A DNA stretch of 64,000 bases from Glaciecola sp. (GTDB lineage: Bacteria > Pseudomonadota > Gammaproteobacteria > Enterobacterales > Alteromonadaceae): positions 34,594 through 98,593 of the forward strand of contig JAAZVZ010000009.1 of the NCBI GenBank assembly GCA_018623155.1. The letters are read 5' to 3'. Shown piece by piece: positions 6,699 through 55,273 of this stretch; positions within the stretch are counted from its first letter, which is position 1, and every line of letters starts with the position of its first letter. The notes beneath the pieces are model-generated. The model was given only the letters and a program-made list of their open reading frames with translations, had not been told where the DNA came from and did not search any database. The position numbers and the translations under genes are program-made.

Positions 6699-9449
6699 AT
6701 GAAACGATTAATTTCTTTCTTTGTAATCATTTTACTACCCTTTTTTAGTCACTCTCAATCTTCTGGGAGTGACCCATTTAAAAGATTATTTGGCGATATT
6801 CCAAAGCAATTTACTCCTATATATAAGTCAGCTAAACGTTTGCAAAAGCCTGGGTTTTATCAGGATATTGTCACGCGTAATGGGCTTGATTTTACAAGAT
6901 TATCAACTCGTGGGCAGTACACCGGTATTACTGAGTATCAGGGCCATGGTCAACATTGGATTGAATTTGACACAGAAAATGGTACTTATTCTGTCAATAT
7001 CATGCGTGAAGGGCATATACATGGTGTATTTGAAGGTGATTCGTTAGGGGCTGCCAAATTAGCACGTCAGCCACAATATCAAGCTCTGCAAGTTGATAAC
7101 ACGGTTGTTGTAGACATCATGTTGTTATATACGCCTAATATCGTCAATGCCTACCCAGATGAATTGACAGAAACACTTCTCGCTCATTTAGTCAATAAAG
7201 CGAATCAGGCATTTGTGAATAGTGATATCAATGTTCAGTTGCGATTAGTACACACTCATTTTGTTGATTATCGTATAGGCTCAAATTTTCAAGCGCTTGA
7301 CGATTTAACTGCAGCACTCAATAACGACATTTCTGATAGCAGCCTCAGTCAAGTACGTGTGCTAAGGGATGAAATGGGAGCAGATATTGTTGCGATGATC
7401 CGTACCCATGATTTGATTGAACGTGAGGTATGTGGTGTAGCAAGGTTCCCGAATACTGAGACAGATGTTTTGGTCAACATTTCAAATGTTGGGATCAGTG
7501 GTGGTTCAAATTGCATAGACACATTTACCCATGAAATTGGTCATAATTTTGGTGCTGGACACCAAGCGGTGGATGGCCAGAGTCGCGGAGCATTGGACAA
7601 TTCAGGGGCATTGTTAATCCCTGGTAAATTCAATACTGTGATGTCTTCCATAGGTACTGGCGATGATAATCGAAACTTTAAGCTCAATGTGTTTTCTAAT
7701 TTAGATAACCAATGTGGGGGGCGCATTTGTGGTGATGCTGAGTTCGCCGATAATGCCAGTACAGTAGAGGCTTTTGCCTTGCAAAACGCTAATTTGCGAG
7801 AAGCAACTATACCATTAGATAATTTCAGCTTACCGCTGAAAACCTTTCCCGATAGTGATAACGATTCGGTAGATGATCGCTTTGATGCTTTTCCACATTT
7901 GGCCTCAGAAACCTCTGATGTTGATAATGATGGTATAGGCGACAATTCCGATGCATTTGTAAATGATTCCACTGAATTCATTGATACGGATAGTGATGGC
8001 ATTGGTAATTCAGCCGATCAAGATGACGATAATGATGGGGTGTTAGATAGCTTGGATGACTTACCATTAGATGCGCAAGAATCCGTTGATTCAGACGGTG
8101 ATGGTGTCGGAGCCAACCGTGATGCCTTGGAAAATGATTTCAGAGAGTTTTTGGATAATGACGGTGATGGAATCGGTAACCGAGCCGATCCTGATGACGA
8201 TAATGATGGTCTACCTGATTTTTATCAGTCTCAGTCCTTAAGTGCCTATGATGTCCTAGTAGTGAGTGCAGATTCCAATGAGTTACTTTCTTTTGATGCG
8301 AGTACAGGTGCATTTAATGAGATAGTAACAACATTACCAGAGGGAAGTTTCACGTTTCGTAGTGATCTCGTGGTCACGCAAAATCAAGCGCAAGTTTTTT
8401 TTATCGCTCAAAGTGATGTATATCGCCTCGACCGTCAAACGGGTGAAGTCAGTGTATTACTTGACCGCAGTGAACTATTCGCAAACTTTCCTGAGCATTT
8501 GGGCCTCGTAGATGATGAACGCCTTGTCGTAACAAACTCACGTTTTAATTTTGAAATCATTGAGATATTTGATTTAACTTCATCTGGTAGTGTACTTACC
8601 TATCAGAGGTTTATTGAAGGTGTACAGCGTGATTTAAACATTTTGACTTCCCAAAGAATGATGGTAACAGACCGTTTAAATAACCGCGTCAACATTCTCA
8701 GTCTAACTGACTCTGCTTCAGAACTCACTCTTTTTGCTGATGAGTTCCTGGAAAAACCTGAATATATTGATCTAACCAGTACGGGTTTTATACTAGTCTC
8801 CACATCAGAAAATAATGTGAATTCGTACCGCGGTACCGGAGCATATCGAAGTCAGACGGTTAGTGGTGACCAGTATGGAATTGACAAAATTGGTTGTTTA
8901 GTCGTTGGGCCTCAAGATATTTTGTTAATATGTGATCCAAATAATAACCGAATTTTGGCATTTGATGCTAACTCAGGACAGTTCATTAGTGAAATCATTA
9001 ACGACAATGGCTCGTCATTGGCAAGGCCTGTGGGAGTTGCCTTTGTTGCAAAAGCCAATGATCCAACCCCTTATGTAGCCGATTTTGATATCGATTCCGA
9101 TGGTGTGGTCAATGCGTCAGATGCATTTCCTCGCGATCCTAATGAGTCAGTAGATACGGATGGCGATGGCATTGGTAACAATGAAGATACTGACGATGAT
9201 AATGACGGCATGCCGGATTCTTATGAGAACCAGTATAATTTTGATCCATTGGACCCAAGTGATGCAACACAAGATGCAGATGACGACGGATCGAGTAATT
9301 TAGCCGAGTATACCATCGGTTCGAATCCACGAGTCAGCTCACAAACTGAACTGGAGCAACGCAACTCAGGCGGAAGCGGGGGAGCCGTACAATGGTGGTG
9401 GTTACTACTTGGTACATTGCTGTTCGGTAGAAGGTATTTTTCTAATTAA
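6699..9449 (+). CDS. Secreted reprolysin-like zinc metalloprotease with TSP3-type repeats and GlyGly-CTERM-type C-terminus
   Basis: Signal peptide; HEIGHNFGAGHQ (HExxHxxGxxH); repeated DxDxDGxxD units; C-term GGSGGAVQWWWLLLGTLLFGRRYFSN. Confidence 0.88.
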   Translation: MKRLISFFVIILLPFFSHSQSSGSDPFKRLFGDIPKQFTPIYKSAKRLQKPGFYQDIVTRNGLDFTRLSTRGQYTGITEYQGHGQHWIEFDTENGTYSVNIMREGHIHGVFEGDSLGAAKLARQPQYQALQVDNTVVVDIMLLYTPNIVNAYPDELTETLLAHLVNKANQAFVNSDINVQLRLVHTHFVDYRIGSNFQALDDLTAALNNDISDSSLSQVRVLRDEMGADIVAMIRTHDLIEREVCGVARFPNTETDVLVNISNVGISGGSNCIDTFTHEIGHNFGAGHQAVDGQSRGALDNSGALLIPGKFNTVMSSIGTGDDNRNFKLNVFSNLDNQCGGRICGDAEFADNASTVEAFALQNANLREATIPLDNFSLPLKTFPDSDNDSVDDRFDAFPHLASETSDVDNDGIGDNSDAFVNDSTEFIDTDSDGIGNSADQDDDNDGVLDSLDDLPLDAQESVDSDGDGVGANRDALENDFREFLDNDGDGIGNRADPDDDNDGLPDFYQSQSLSAYDVLVVSADSNELLSFDASTGAFNEIVTTLPEGSFTFRSDLVVTQNQAQVFFIAQSDVYRLDRQTGEVSVLLDRSELFANFPEHLGLVDDERLVVTNSRFNFEIIEIFDLTSSGSVLTYQRFIEGVQRDLNILTSQRMMVTDRLNNRVNILSLTDSASELTLFADEFLEKPEYIDLTSTGFILVSTSENNVNSYRGTGAYRSQTVSGDQYGIDKIGCLVVGPQDILLICDPNNNRILAFDANSGQFISEIINDNGSSLARPVGVAFVAKANDPTPYVADFDIDSDGVVNASDAFPRDPNESVDTDGDGIGNNEDTDDDNDGMPDSYENQYNFDPLDPSDATQDADDDGSSNLAEYTIGSNPRVSSQTELEQRNSGGSGGAVQWWWLLLGTLLFGRRYFSN

Positions 9450-35162: not shown

Positions 35163-36620
35163 ATGAGACCCTCTCTGCAACTCAAATTCAGTCAGCAACT
35201 GACTATGACGCCGCAACTTCAGCAGGCGATTAAGTTGTTACAACTTTCCACACTGGATTTACAGCAAGAAATACAAGAAGCATTAGACGCTAATCCTTTG
35301 CTTGAGGTGGAAGATGATTTTACTAGCAATATCGAATCACTCGATGCATCTCAGAACAAAGATTCCGACACTTCAGATTCCATCTCATCTCATGAAGCCC
35401 TAGAATCGGACAACGTCTCAGATGATTTGCCCTTAGATAGTACCTGGGATGAATATTACAGCGCTTCTTCTGCACCGGCTCCTATGACAAACTCAGTTGG
35501 GGGGGATGAGGATACCGTTTACCAAGGTGAAACAACGCAGAACATTCAAGACCATCTGCTTTGGCAAGTGGATTTGACCCCTTTTTCAGATACCGACCGC
35601 GTCATTGCCTTTGCCATTATTGATAGCATAGATGATAGTGGGTATTTGACGACGACTACGGAAGATATCCTTCAAGCAATTGATTTGGAGGATGTGGAAC
35701 TTGATGAAGTAGAGTGTGTCCTCAAACGCGTGCAAATGTTTGATCCAATCGGTTCAGGTTCACGCAATGTACAAGAATGTTTATTGATTCAGTTGCGTCA
35801 GTTTGATCACGACACCCCTTATTTGTCAGAGGCTCAAGCCATTATCAAAGAACACAGTGATTTACTCGCAGCCAAAGATTATCGAACTTTAATGCGTAAG
35901 ACGCGTCTAAAAGAACAAGATCTTCGAGAAATTATGCTGTTGTTGCAGTCATTGAACCCGAGACCAGGAAGTGTGATTCAGGTTGAAGCGCCATCTTACA
36001 TAATACCTGACGTGAGTGTAGTCAAAAAGAACGGACGTTGGTTGGTTGAACTTAATCCTGATAGTTTACCTAAGTTGAATATTAACCAACAGTATGCTGC
36101 ACTGAGCAAAAACTCGCGCAACAGCGCAGATAGCCAATTTATAAAATCGCACATGCAAGAGGCAAAGTGGTTTATTAAAAGCCTCGAATCGCGCAACGAT
36201 ACATTATTAAAAGTAGCTAATTGTATCGTTCAACAGCAAATTGGATTTTTTGAGCATGGGCCTGAGATGATGAGGCCTATGGTACTTAACGATGTGGCTG
36301 AGATGGTTGATATGCACGAATCGACCATATCCCGTGTCACCACACAAAAATACATGCACACACCACGTGGTATTTTTGAACTGAAATATTTCTTTTCAAG
36401 TCATGTGGCGACCGAATCTGGCGGAGAATGTTCTTCTACTGCGATTCGAGCATTGATCAAAAAACTGGTTGCGGCAGAAAATACAGTGAAGCCGCTCAGT
36501 GATAACAAGATTGCAGAAGTGTTAGCCGATCAAGGTATAAAAGTAGCGCGGCGAACCATTGCAAAATACCGGGAGTCATTAAATATCCCATCTTCGAGCC
36601 AACGCAAAAGCTTGGTTTAA
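35163..36620 (+). CDS. rpoN: RNA polymerase sigma-54 factor
   Basis: N-terminal Q-rich region I; RpoN box [10 protein letters not shown]. Confidence 0.99.
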
Positions 36621-51424: not shown

Positions 51425-52447
51425 ATGAGCCACAAGTCATTTCCTCGCAGATTTTCAGTTGCCCCGATGCTAGATTGGACCGATCGTCATTGTCGCTATT
51501 TTTATCGGCAGATGACTCAGCATGCCTTGTTGTACACAGAGATGGTTACTACTGGGGCGATTATTCATGGCAAAGGGGATTTTTTAGGGTTTAATGAAGC
51601 AGAACATCCAGTTGCTTTGCAACTAGGTGGTTCAGACCCAGCGGCAATGGCAGAATGTGCGGTTAGAGCACAAACTCAAGGTTATGATGAAGTAAACATC
51701 AATGTCGGTTGTCCATCAGATCGCGTACAAAACGGTGCTTTTGGTGCATGTCTAATGGCGCAACCAGAGACAGTCGCAGAATGCATAAAAGCAATGCAAA
51801 GAGTCGTTTCTATCCCAGTTACCGTTAAATCGCGAATCGGTATCGATGATATGGATGAGTACGAGGATTTAACTCGATTTATTCAAGTCGTGGCAGACGC
51901 TGGTTGCGATACGTTTATTGTTCATGCACGCAAAGCATGGCTCAAAGGGTTAAGTCCCAAAGAAAATCGTGATATTCCTCCATTAATGTATGAGCGAGTA
52001 TATCAACTCAAGCAACAGTTCCCCCACCTTCATATTGGTATTAACGGTGGGATCAACAATCACACAGATGGGATTGCCCATTTAGCACACGTTGACGAGG
52101 TCATGCTTGGACGTGAAGTCTATGCCAATCCGTATTGTTTAGCTGAGGTCGACACCTTGTATTATGATGAGCAATATGAAGTGCCGAGTCGAGCAGCTGT
52201 GGTAGAGCGTATGCATCGCTATACCCAAGCTTATGTGAATGACGGAGGGCGAGTATGGCATGTCGCGAGGCATATGTTAGGGCTGTTTCAAGGCCAACCA
52301 GGTGGTAAGGTTTGGCGGCGATACCTGAGCCAGAATGCAATTAAAGGCGAGGTTTCAGCCGATGTGCTGTTGGACGCGCATGCAGAAATGGAAGCCACCA
52401 AAGCACGCGCTTTGGCATTTCAGGCTGATAAAGCGATGCAAAGTTAA
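51425..52447 (+). CDS. dusA: tRNA-dihydrouridine(20/20a) synthase
   Basis: FSVAPMLDWTDRHCRYFYR; NVGCPSDRVQNGAFGACLM. Confidence 0.96.
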   Translation: MSHKSFPRRFSVAPMLDWTDRHCRYFYRQMTQHALLYTEMVTTGAIIHGKGDFLGFNEAEHPVALQLGGSDPAAMAECAVRAQTQGYDEVNINVGCPSDRVQNGAFGACLMAQPETVAECIKAMQRVVSIPVTVKSRIGIDDMDEYEDLTRFIQVVADAGCDTFIVHARKAWLKGLSPKENRDIPPLMYERVYQLKQQFPHLHIGINGGINNHTDGIAHLAHVDEVMLGREVYANPYCLAEVDTLYYDEQYEVPSRAAVVERMHRYTQAYVNDGGRVWHVARHMLGLFQGQPGGKVWRRYLSQNAIKGEVSADVLLDAHAEMEATKARALAFQADKAMQS

Positions 52448-52635
52448 CTTGGCTTTTTTTTTGAGTTGAACATCTCGTCGGTTATAAAGTTCCACACCTT
52501 TACCGAAAATAATTTGACTAATATATAGTGACTTTTACTAATTAACTTGGTCAAAAAAACCACGTTAATCATTTCTTTATCCGCCACTTTCATAAAAATT
52601 CATTATAAAACATTGGTTTACAATTTATTTCAGAA

Positions 52636-52653
52636 TTGGCACAACCCTAGCAA
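52636..52653 (+). promoter_or_regulatory. Candidate sigma-54 (-24/-12) promoter
   Basis: TTGGCACAACCCTAGCAA; GG (52638-52639) and GC (52650-52651) separated by exactly 10 nt. Confidence 0.7.
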
Positions 52654-52719
52654 TAGTCAATGCGACTCAAACAATACGCTGTAACTATTGTTATTAATTT
52701 CTTTAAAAAGGGTATGACT

Positions 52720-53037
52720 ATGACTGTTACAACTAAACTTGCTAAATCCATTGTTGCTACTGCATTCTTAGCGGCAGCATCCGCTACGGCCTATGCGCAT
52801 ACAGTGCAAACGGTTCCATTAAACACATATGTGAATGCAATGATGCAACAAACAACGGCATTGAATTCACAAGAAGTGCATTTTGCTGCGGTGGAATCGG
52901 TCGCCAACATGACTCACCAGCTATCACTTGATGACCAGCCACAATTTGCTCCCAATATTAATGTGATTGATATTGTACAAAACACCATCTCAGTGGGTAT
53001 TAAAGAGCTTAAAAATGTTGAAGATGAGGCTGAGTAA
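52720..53037 (+). CDS. Small exported protein of unknown function (~105 aa)
   Basis: Signal peptide MTVTTKLAKSIVATAFLAAASATAYA; AAAAAGGG seven bases upstream of ATG 52720; the ORF-track start at 52660 lies at or before the predicted TSS. Confidence 0.72.
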   Translation: MTVTTKLAKSIVATAFLAAASATAYAHTVQTVPLNTYVNAMMQQTTALNSQEVHFAAVESVANMTHQLSLDDQPQFAPNINVIDIVQNTISVGIKELKNVEDEAE

Positions 53038-53039
53038 TC

Positions 53040-53159
53040 ATGTTTCTCACAGACTTAATGTGGTTATTTTGCGCGCCTATTCTTGCCTTTTTTGCCGCAG
53101 TAGGTTTATGGCTAGGCAGCTTAAAGATTCCGTATCATATTTTTCTGTTGAAACGATAA
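53040..53159 (+). CDS. 39-aa membrane microprotein
   Basis: Manual translation MFLTDLMWLFCAPILAFFAAVGLWLGSLKIPYHIFLLKR*; begins 2 nt after the previous stop; below the ORF-track length cut-off. Confidence 0.55.
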   Translation: MFLTDLMWLFCAPILAFFAAVGLWLGSLKIPYHIFLLKR

Positions 53160-53190
53160 CGGGTGTAAAAGCTTCTAAAGGAGACAAAAA

Positions 53191-53397
53191 ATGAATAAAC
53201 AAAAATACGACTCACGGCTGTACCGTGATGCAAGTAACCCTATGATCAGTGGTGTGTGTAGTGGCATTGCAAAACGCTTTGATCTCGATGCCGTTTGGGT
53301 AAGAGCAGGAGCTATGACGGCCTTTTTGTTTGCTCCGACCGCCATTGCATTGGGATATATATTAGGGATTTTGTTTTTACGCAAACGCTACGCATGA
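53191..53397 (+). CDS. PspC domain-containing membrane protein
   Basis: 68 aa; LYRDASNPMISGVCSGIAKRFDLDAVWVRAG plus TM; RBS AAAGGAGA. Confidence 0.9.
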   Translation: MNKQKYDSRLYRDASNPMISGVCSGIAKRFDLDAVWVRAGAMTAFLFAPTAIALGYILGILFLRKRYA

Positions 53398-53500
53398 TTA
53401 CATCATAGAAAATAACTATGATGTAAATCAAAAATTTGTCACATAAAAATGCGCAAAATGATGCTATGCTATGGGTATCATTTTTGTGCTAGGGAATGCC

Positions 53501-54490
53501 ATGCCAGAATCAATTAATTTTAAAAATATCGGGTTTGCGACCCTCGCATTCATTTTCGTACTAACTCTGCTAGGTTGGGTATGGAGTTGGTCTCCAGTAA
53601 CGTTTTCGGTGAAAGACGTCGTGGCAGAACAAGCGACTAAGTTAAAAGTGAAGCCAGTAGTAGGGTTTGCGACAACAACCGCGGTCATTGAAGTCGGCGA
53701 TACCTTGTTACATAAATCTGGAGGCTATCTTACTAATGATATTGCGCCTCCCGGTGTACTGATGGACAACATGCCCGCATGGGAGTTTGGTGTACTGGAG
53801 ATGCTACGTGATGTGACCTTAGCGTTGCGTAAAGATTTTTCTCGGTCGCAATCTCAATCAGTTGAAAATGAGTTTTTGGTGAAAGCACAACCCAATTTGA
53901 ATATCGATAGTACCAAATGGATTTTACCGTCGGCAGAATCTCAATATGGGGAAGCAATTGATTTAATAAAGGCTTACCGACTTGCGTTAACGCAACAACA
54001 GGCTAGCAGTCAGTTTTTTGCTCGAGCAGATAACCTGCGGGATTACCTCAAAGAAGTCGAGAAACGCTTGGGCTCTATGTCACAAAAACTCAGTGCCAGT
54101 GTGGGCGCTGATATCGTCAATACCGATTTAGCAGGCGACGCCAAAGCGTCTCAGTCCACACCAACACCAATGCAACTGACTAACAAAACGAGTTGGTTCA
54201 AAATTGATGATAATTTTTATCAAGCGCGCGGTATGGCATGGGCCTTATTGCACATATTGCGAGGGATCGAAATGGACTTTCGCGATATTTTGGTGAACAA
54301 AAATGCCTTGGTGAGTTTACGTCAAATCATTCGTGAGCTGGAAGCGACTCAAGAGACAGTATGGAGTCCGATGATTCTTAATGGCAGTGGTTTTGGTATG
54401 CTCGCCAATCACTCATTGGTCATGGCAAACTACATCTCCAGAGCCAATGCGGGCATCATTGAACTGGCTGAGTTACTCAACCGGGGTTAA
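53501..54490 (+). CDS. DUF2333 family protein
   Basis: VVEV-like region TTTAVIEVGDTLLHKSGGYLTNDIAPPGVLMDNMPAWEFGVLEMLRD; start MPESINF. Confidence 0.82.
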   Translation: MPESINFKNIGFATLAFIFVLTLLGWVWSWSPVTFSVKDVVAEQATKLKVKPVVGFATTTAVIEVGDTLLHKSGGYLTNDIAPPGVLMDNMPAWEFGVLEMLRDVTLALRKDFSRSQSQSVENEFLVKAQPNLNIDSTKWILPSAESQYGEAIDLIKAYRLALTQQQASSQFFARADNLRDYLKEVEKRLGSMSQKLSASVGADIVNTDLAGDAKASQSTPTPMQLTNKTSWFKIDDNFYQARGMAWALLHILRGIEMDFRDILVNKNALVSLRQIIRELEATQETVWSPMILNGSGFGMLANHSLVMANYISRANAGIIELAELLNRG

Positions 54491-54520
54491 ACCAATTAAA
54501 ACTAAACACTTGGAACGCAA

Positions 54521-55273
54521 ATGAAAACACATATAGCAGTTGTATTATCTGGTCTAATTTTGAGTACTAGTACTCATGCTGACACGTTATTGGGCCTGTA
54601 TGGTGGTGCCCAAATGTGGGCAATGGAAAGCGAAGGCGCGTTTGCATCAGACGCCAACTTAGCTAACTTCACCTTTGATGATGAGCGTCAAGGATCCTAT
54701 TACCTGGCGTTTGAACATTTTATTCCCCTAGTGCCGAATGCTAAATTAATTCAAACGAGTTTTGATACAGATGGTTTTACTGATTTGTCTTCAAGTTTTA
54801 CTTTTGGCGGCGAAACATTTTCATCAGATTCCCGGTTAAATACGGATATCGAGATGAGTATGACAGATCATATTTTGTATTATGAAATCCTAGATAATGA
54901 TTTAATTAGTGTTGATTTAGGGATTAATGCCAAGAAGATAGATGCGACAATTAGTGTTGACGATTCGGCAAATGGCGTATCAGGTTCACAGGATGTCAGC
55001 GGTTATATTCCAATGCTGTATTCCAAAATTGAATTCGGGATCCCTGCAACCGATTGGTCCATCTACGCAGAAGGAAGTTATTTATCAATTGATGATCACA
55101 GTGTGAGTGATCTGAATGCTGCCATTGAGTACCGTGTTATCGATAGCTTAGCAATGAACGTTGCATTACAGATTGGTGCACGAGCTGTTACTGTAGAGTT
55201 AAACGACCTTGACAACACCAACACAGATTTAGAGTTCAGTGGAGTGTATGCAGGGGTTGAGGTTCATTTCTAA
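54521..55273 (+). CDS. TIGR04219-type outer-membrane beta-barrel protein
   Basis: Signal peptide, beta-barrel pattern, C-terminal aromatic (VEVHF). Confidence 0.78.
   Translation: MKTHIAVVLSGLILSTSTHADTLLGLYGGAQMWAMESEGAFASDANLANFTFDDERQGSYYLAFEHFIPLVPNAKLIQTSFDTDGFTDLSSSFTFGGETFSSDSRLNTDIEMSMTDHILYYEILDNDLISVDLGINAKKIDATISVDDSANGVSGSQDVSGYIPMLYSKIEFGIPATDWSIYAEGSYLSIDDHSVSDLNAAIEYRVIDSLAMNVALQIGARAVTVELNDLDNTNTDLEFSGVYAGVEVHF

Follow-up and report, generated by a model that had tools for sequence, protein, structure and literature searches.

A predicted PspF-controlled satellite operon of the phage-shock response behind dusA in a Glaciecola genome

Three small genes that follow dusA in the 64-kb stretch of DNA analysed here (the window) very probably belong to the PspF regulon, as an operon that is a satellite to the phage-shock (Psp) response. 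They encode an exported protein, termed X, a membrane microprotein and a short PspC-domain protein, termed PspC2. The prediction is made from the sequence and follows from two properties: a canonical pspF-pspABC locus is present elsewhere in the genome, and the best match to a PspF-enhancer matrix in the window is found 90 nt 5′ of a sigma-54 site that precedes X.

Gene set and sigma-54 promoter

The features of the locus and the rpoN gene of the window are listed by position.

35163–36620: rpoN, in which an RpoN box is found
51425–52447, plus strand: dusA (PF01207, E=4.5e-89), the conserved upstream neighbour
52525–52541, plus strand: weaker candidate PspF enhancer, ATAGTGACTTTTACTAA (PWM score 7.6), 22 bp 5′ of the strong site
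52547–52563, minus strand: strong candidate PspF enhancer (UAS), plus-strand sequence TTGGTCAAAAAAACCAC (PWM score 14.6; shuffle p=0.015)
52636–52653, plus strand: predicted sigma-54 promoter (−24/−12), TTGGCACAACCCTAGCAA, with a predicted start near 52663
52720–53037, plus strand: X, exported, ~105 aa, with a signal peptide and an acidic tail with an -AE end
53040–53159, plus strand: microprotein, 39 aa, one transmembrane segment (TM), motif like AP(I/V)(L/M)(A/T)(F/Y)
53191–53397, plus strand: PspC2, 68 aa, a PspC domain alone (PF04024, E=5.8e-16)
53498–54490, plus strand: DUF2333 protein (PF10095, E=1e-142), the conserved downstream neighbour

A first-pass annotation of this DNA had described a packed set of an exported protein, a one-TM peptide and a PspC-domain protein, and the open reading frames are real. 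The intergenic region between dusA and X is 272 bp long. X has an ATG at 52720 and an alternative ATG at 52714, and its signal peptide ends AYA-H. No convincing match to X was found in Pfam, NCBIfam or PDB, nor to the window X in PHROGs, and the microprotein matched no Pfam or NCBIfam family. The AlphaFold model of X, made from a two-sequence alignment, has a pLDDT of 50.6, too low to support a molecular function. In alignment A2, many members of the X family finish with -AE or -SE behind an acidic tail; these ends could be a feature of the protein or a trace of the downstream ribosome-binding site.

PspC2 scores 58.5 bits against PF04024, where the gathering threshold is 25, and thus has a PspC domain. 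Against TIGR02978 it scores 55 bits with a cut-off of 104, and the first half of the model alone is covered. PspC2 is therefore not a full-length PspC; the second half of the full protein is missing. Neither pspA nor pspB is present within 52400–53500, and the locus is accordingly not a canonical pspABC operon. Downstream of pspC2 are the gene for the DUF2333 protein and then that for a YfaZ-like barrel protein (53498–55273). Among upstream regions of DUF2333 genes, 1 of 53 has an enhancer site and 1 of 53 a sigma-54 site, and the DUF2333 gene is probably outside the regulated unit.

The sigma-54 element spans 52637–52651. Its GG (52638–39) and GC (52650–51) are exactly 10 nt apart, as the first-pass annotation had it, and the distance to the ATG of X (52714 or 52720) is about 62–68 nt, in agreement with its ~65 nt; the presence of rpoN in the window was also correctly noted. 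This site is the sole perfect match to TGGCACNNNNNTWGCW in the 64-kb window. Matches with two mismatches or fewer number 65 across the window, with 62 expected, which is the chance level. A bare sigma-54 match is therefore weak evidence, and conservation and enhancer sites, which make the evidence strong, were used in place of consensus counting. That orthologues should also have the GG/GC element in front of them had been set beforehand as a test of the promoter, and a sigma-54 site is present upstream of 68 of the 72 X copies.

Candidate PspF enhancers and the canonical psp genes

The PspF-enhancer matrix is 17 bp long, and its training set consists only of pspF-pspA intergenic regions from the family, 30 in number. 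It recovers the enhancers of E. coli pspA and pspG, both of which are absent from the training set. The strong site of the window is its top match on both strands of the entire 64 kb. The tandem arrangement of candidate enhancers, with a spacing of 21–22 bp, is that of pspA promoters and is often seen at other X promoters. Shuffle p values of 0.05 or less were obtained in 49 of 52 test regions (2 from E. coli, 50 upstream of X); the X promoter of a sister genome, G007, scores just 8.7, with a shuffle p of 0.149. Scores of at least 12 are found upstream of X in 61 of 72 cases, and upstream of DusA, DUF2333 and YfaZ-like genes in 0 of 45, 1 of 53 and 0 of 44, respectively. The composite pattern TTGGTCAAN{75,105}TTGGCACAA, which joins both types of site, has three matches in the genome itself (the pspA promoter, the X promoter and one other) and none in the control. 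The third match, at G000:C2:40556–40671 on the minus strand, could be due to chance. On the basis of the matrix scores, the upstream counts of X compared with its neighbours and the composite pattern, control of the X promoter by PspF is strongly predicted.

Contig C6 of the same genome carries pspF, pspA, pspB and the gene for a 148-aa PspC together, in the canonical pspF-pspABC arrangement and with a sigma-54-like site of its own. The genome encodes one PspA (on C6) and two PspC-domain proteins; PspG was not detected in it with PF09583. All 150 genomes sampled from the family (150 of 150) have a PspF homologue. The first-pass annotation held that the unit lacks pspA, pspB and pspF. This is true of the locus but not of the genome, as all three are on C6; the absence is local only. 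Given the canonical locus on another contig and the universal PspF of the sample, the unit is not a Psp system that is missing its usual partners.

Distribution and origin in the Alteromonadaceae

Profile searches at E≤0.001 find X in 113 of 199 Alteromonadaceae genomes and in 39 of 52 genera; the weakest matches lean partly on gene context, inspected in a sample of cases. A profile is needed, since a search with a single X sequence finds 9 of 150 genomes only. In a sample of the class, X is present in 3 of 369 genomes, all three from Alteromonadaceae, and one other family of the order has a weak X match with a pspA-pspC pair behind it. Matches in two further genomes (G634 and G700) were discarded; they lie inside long open reading frames and look like matches to a signal peptide.

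The usual order in the family is dusA, X, in some cases the microprotein gene, pspA2, pspC2, Y110, DUF2333 and YfaZ-like. In many genera X is directly before pspA2 with no microprotein between them. Most X genes without pspA2 directly behind are followed by a one-TM open reading frame similar to the microprotein in size and motif. No pspB was seen at the X locus of any relative. In a PspA tree, canonical PspA and E. coli PspA fall in one clade (97/85), with the PspA2 of the dusA locus apart; the PspC-domain alignment offers too few columns for its tree to split canonical PspC firmly from PspC2.

Y110 is a membrane protein encoded in relatives and not in the window, and its gene takes the place of pspG. 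It has no Pfam match, and an hhalign value of 87% over 23 columns only is no more than suggestive of homology to PspG. In another family (L189), a true PspG is encoded before DUF2333, in the same position as Y110. The DUF2333 and YfaZ-like genes are near-constant downstream of the locus, and are also 3′ of pspG in L189.

X with a microprotein-like open reading frame is also found away from dusA at five loci (L107, L120, L122, L126 and L127), each with sigma-54 and PspF-like sites. Tandem X copies are present in L108 (1815–2815) and L152 (1852–3432); in L108 each of the two copies has its own sigma-54 site and microprotein-like open reading frame. A locus of another family, L191, displays short tandem repeats right behind pspC2 (8992–9269).

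Relatives indicate how the window arrangement arose. Four genomes of the same genus (G056, G091, G120 and G144) have two PspA genes, with pspA2 at the X locus behind its own sigma-54 site; a PspF-like site before pspA2 was scored in the last three. The sister Glaciecola sp. (G007 and L021; Alteromonadaceae) have the locus without pspA2. Directly before pspC2 they carry an enhancer (scores 15.9 and 13.7) and a sigma-54 site, TGGCATGAGGATTGA, and behind the microprotein a terminator-like hairpin, with folding done for G007. The window, which also has no pspA2, does not have a spacer of this type, and 31 nt are left between microprotein and pspC2. By this comparison, the window lineage lost pspA2 and then its promoter, with fusion of X, microprotein and pspC2 into one unit. 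As the spacer with the second promoter is gone, the three genes would share a single promoter.

X and pspC2 without pspA2 at the locus are also found in genera g4, g7, g16 and g20. In G144 (L192, 3400–4030), X is a 15-codon open reading frame, while the sigma-54 promoter is intact and the microprotein open reading frame is kept. Between the window and G007, pN/pS is 0.14/0.57 for X, 0.14/0.45 for the microprotein and 0.10/0.47 for pspC2, and dN/dS is about 0.14–0.23 over the three genes (about 0.15 for X). Judged by these ratios, all three genes are under purifying selection.

Proposed function, alternatives and known systems

In E. coli, stress at the inner membrane causes PspA to let go of PspF. 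The course of events that we infer for the window genome, from stress induction and PspF binding to the molecular roles of the three proteins, would begin with the release of PspF by canonical PspA under inner-membrane stress. The freed PspF would bind the tandem candidate enhancers at 52525–52563 and drive sigma-54 RNA polymerase at 52637–52651, in parallel with the canonical pspA promoter. A single transcript would give exported X, the one-TM microprotein and the short PspC-domain protein. PspC2 may serve canonical PspA as an anchor in the membrane or as a partner; X and the microprotein would act at the inner membrane, on its periplasmic side. The three products would thus be extra envelope effectors or modulators made with the Psp response. 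A bolder suggestion, plausible but tentative, is that X and the microprotein form an undescribed periplasm-plus-membrane arm, a sensor or effector on the outer side of the inner membrane, that is PspF-controlled in most Alteromonadaceae genera and works with or without a dedicated PspA.

The first-pass annotation favoured a separate sigma-54 envelope-stress system, here taken to have its own control, in which PspC was kept and PspA and PspB were replaced by the periplasmic protein and the microprotein. The local absence of pspA, pspB and pspF and the novelty of X and the microprotein speak for such a system, and sigma-54 control is upheld. The separateness is not: the genome has a canonical pspF-pspABC, the enhancers fit the PspF matrix, and relatives carry a pspA paralogue, pspA2, at this same locus. 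Replacement of PspA and PspB is likewise not supported, and an independent system is highly improbable. What remains of the proposed undescribed system is that X and the microprotein are themselves undescribed, within a predicted satellite of the PspF regulon. Five strong Sigma54_activat proteins are encoded in the genome, three of them homologues besides PspF and TyrR, and one of these could in principle act on the same promoter. The enhancer sites are nevertheless of the pspA-promoter type, down to the tandem ~22-bp spacing, which makes another activator very unlikely.

Small exported and small membrane proteins that occur together, and also as standalone and tandem copies (L107, L120, L122, L108, L152), bring to mind a toxin-antitoxin or secreted-peptide/immunity pair that is in a psp locus by chance. 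Such a pair is hard to reconcile with the many genera in which X precedes pspA2 directly without a microprotein, with G144, where X is reduced to 15 codons and the microprotein is kept, or with the PspF and sigma-54 signals at both standalone and operon copies; it can be given very little credence. It is also unlikely, if less remote, that the genes are relics of an operon that is degenerating after loss of pspA2. The step-wise reduction within the genus and the small genome (2.3 Mb) are in keeping with decay, but the dN/dS values of all three genes and the retention of X and pspC2 without pspA2 in the four other genera argue against it. The satellite operon of the PspF regulon is the preferred reading.

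Several known arrangements resemble this predicted satellite. The E. coli dusA-pspG locus shares the position behind dusA and, in the spacer that follows dusA, a sigma-54 promoter and a PspF enhancer (predicted in the window), but encodes PspG only, whereas the window locus encodes X, the microprotein and PspC2. Several further families of the order also have the dusA-pspG arrangement. With the canonical pspF-pspABC of C6 the window locus has in common PspF enhancers (predicted at the window locus), a sigma-54 promoter and a PspC domain; it differs in its domain-only PspC2 of 68 aa, in having no pspB, in the missing pspA2 and in two new genes. A PspA-PspC-PspG operon in f205, another family of the order (L186–L188), is preceded by a PspF-like enhancer and by sigma-54 signals, as at the window locus, but no X was detected there by profile.

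Among the listed sigma-54 sites of E. coli is the spacer between dusA and pspG (PMC8743547). The E. coli PspF regulon is described as comprising pspABCDE and pspG only (PMC2763126, PMC9239133). Main-text passages of two comparative Psp surveys (PMC11237479, PMC9239133) contain no alteromonad names and no description of the X locus, and further searches of non-subscription papers found none.

The same control signals as those of pspA precede the genes for X, a conserved exported protein, and the microprotein. Of the 52 genera sampled in this large marine family, 39 have X. The natural variants, namely X and microprotein alone, X-pspA2-pspC2, microprotein without X, and pspC2 without pspA2, allow a part-by-part comparison. 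The Psp response in Alteromonadaceae would gain two undescribed components, the exported protein X and the membrane microprotein.
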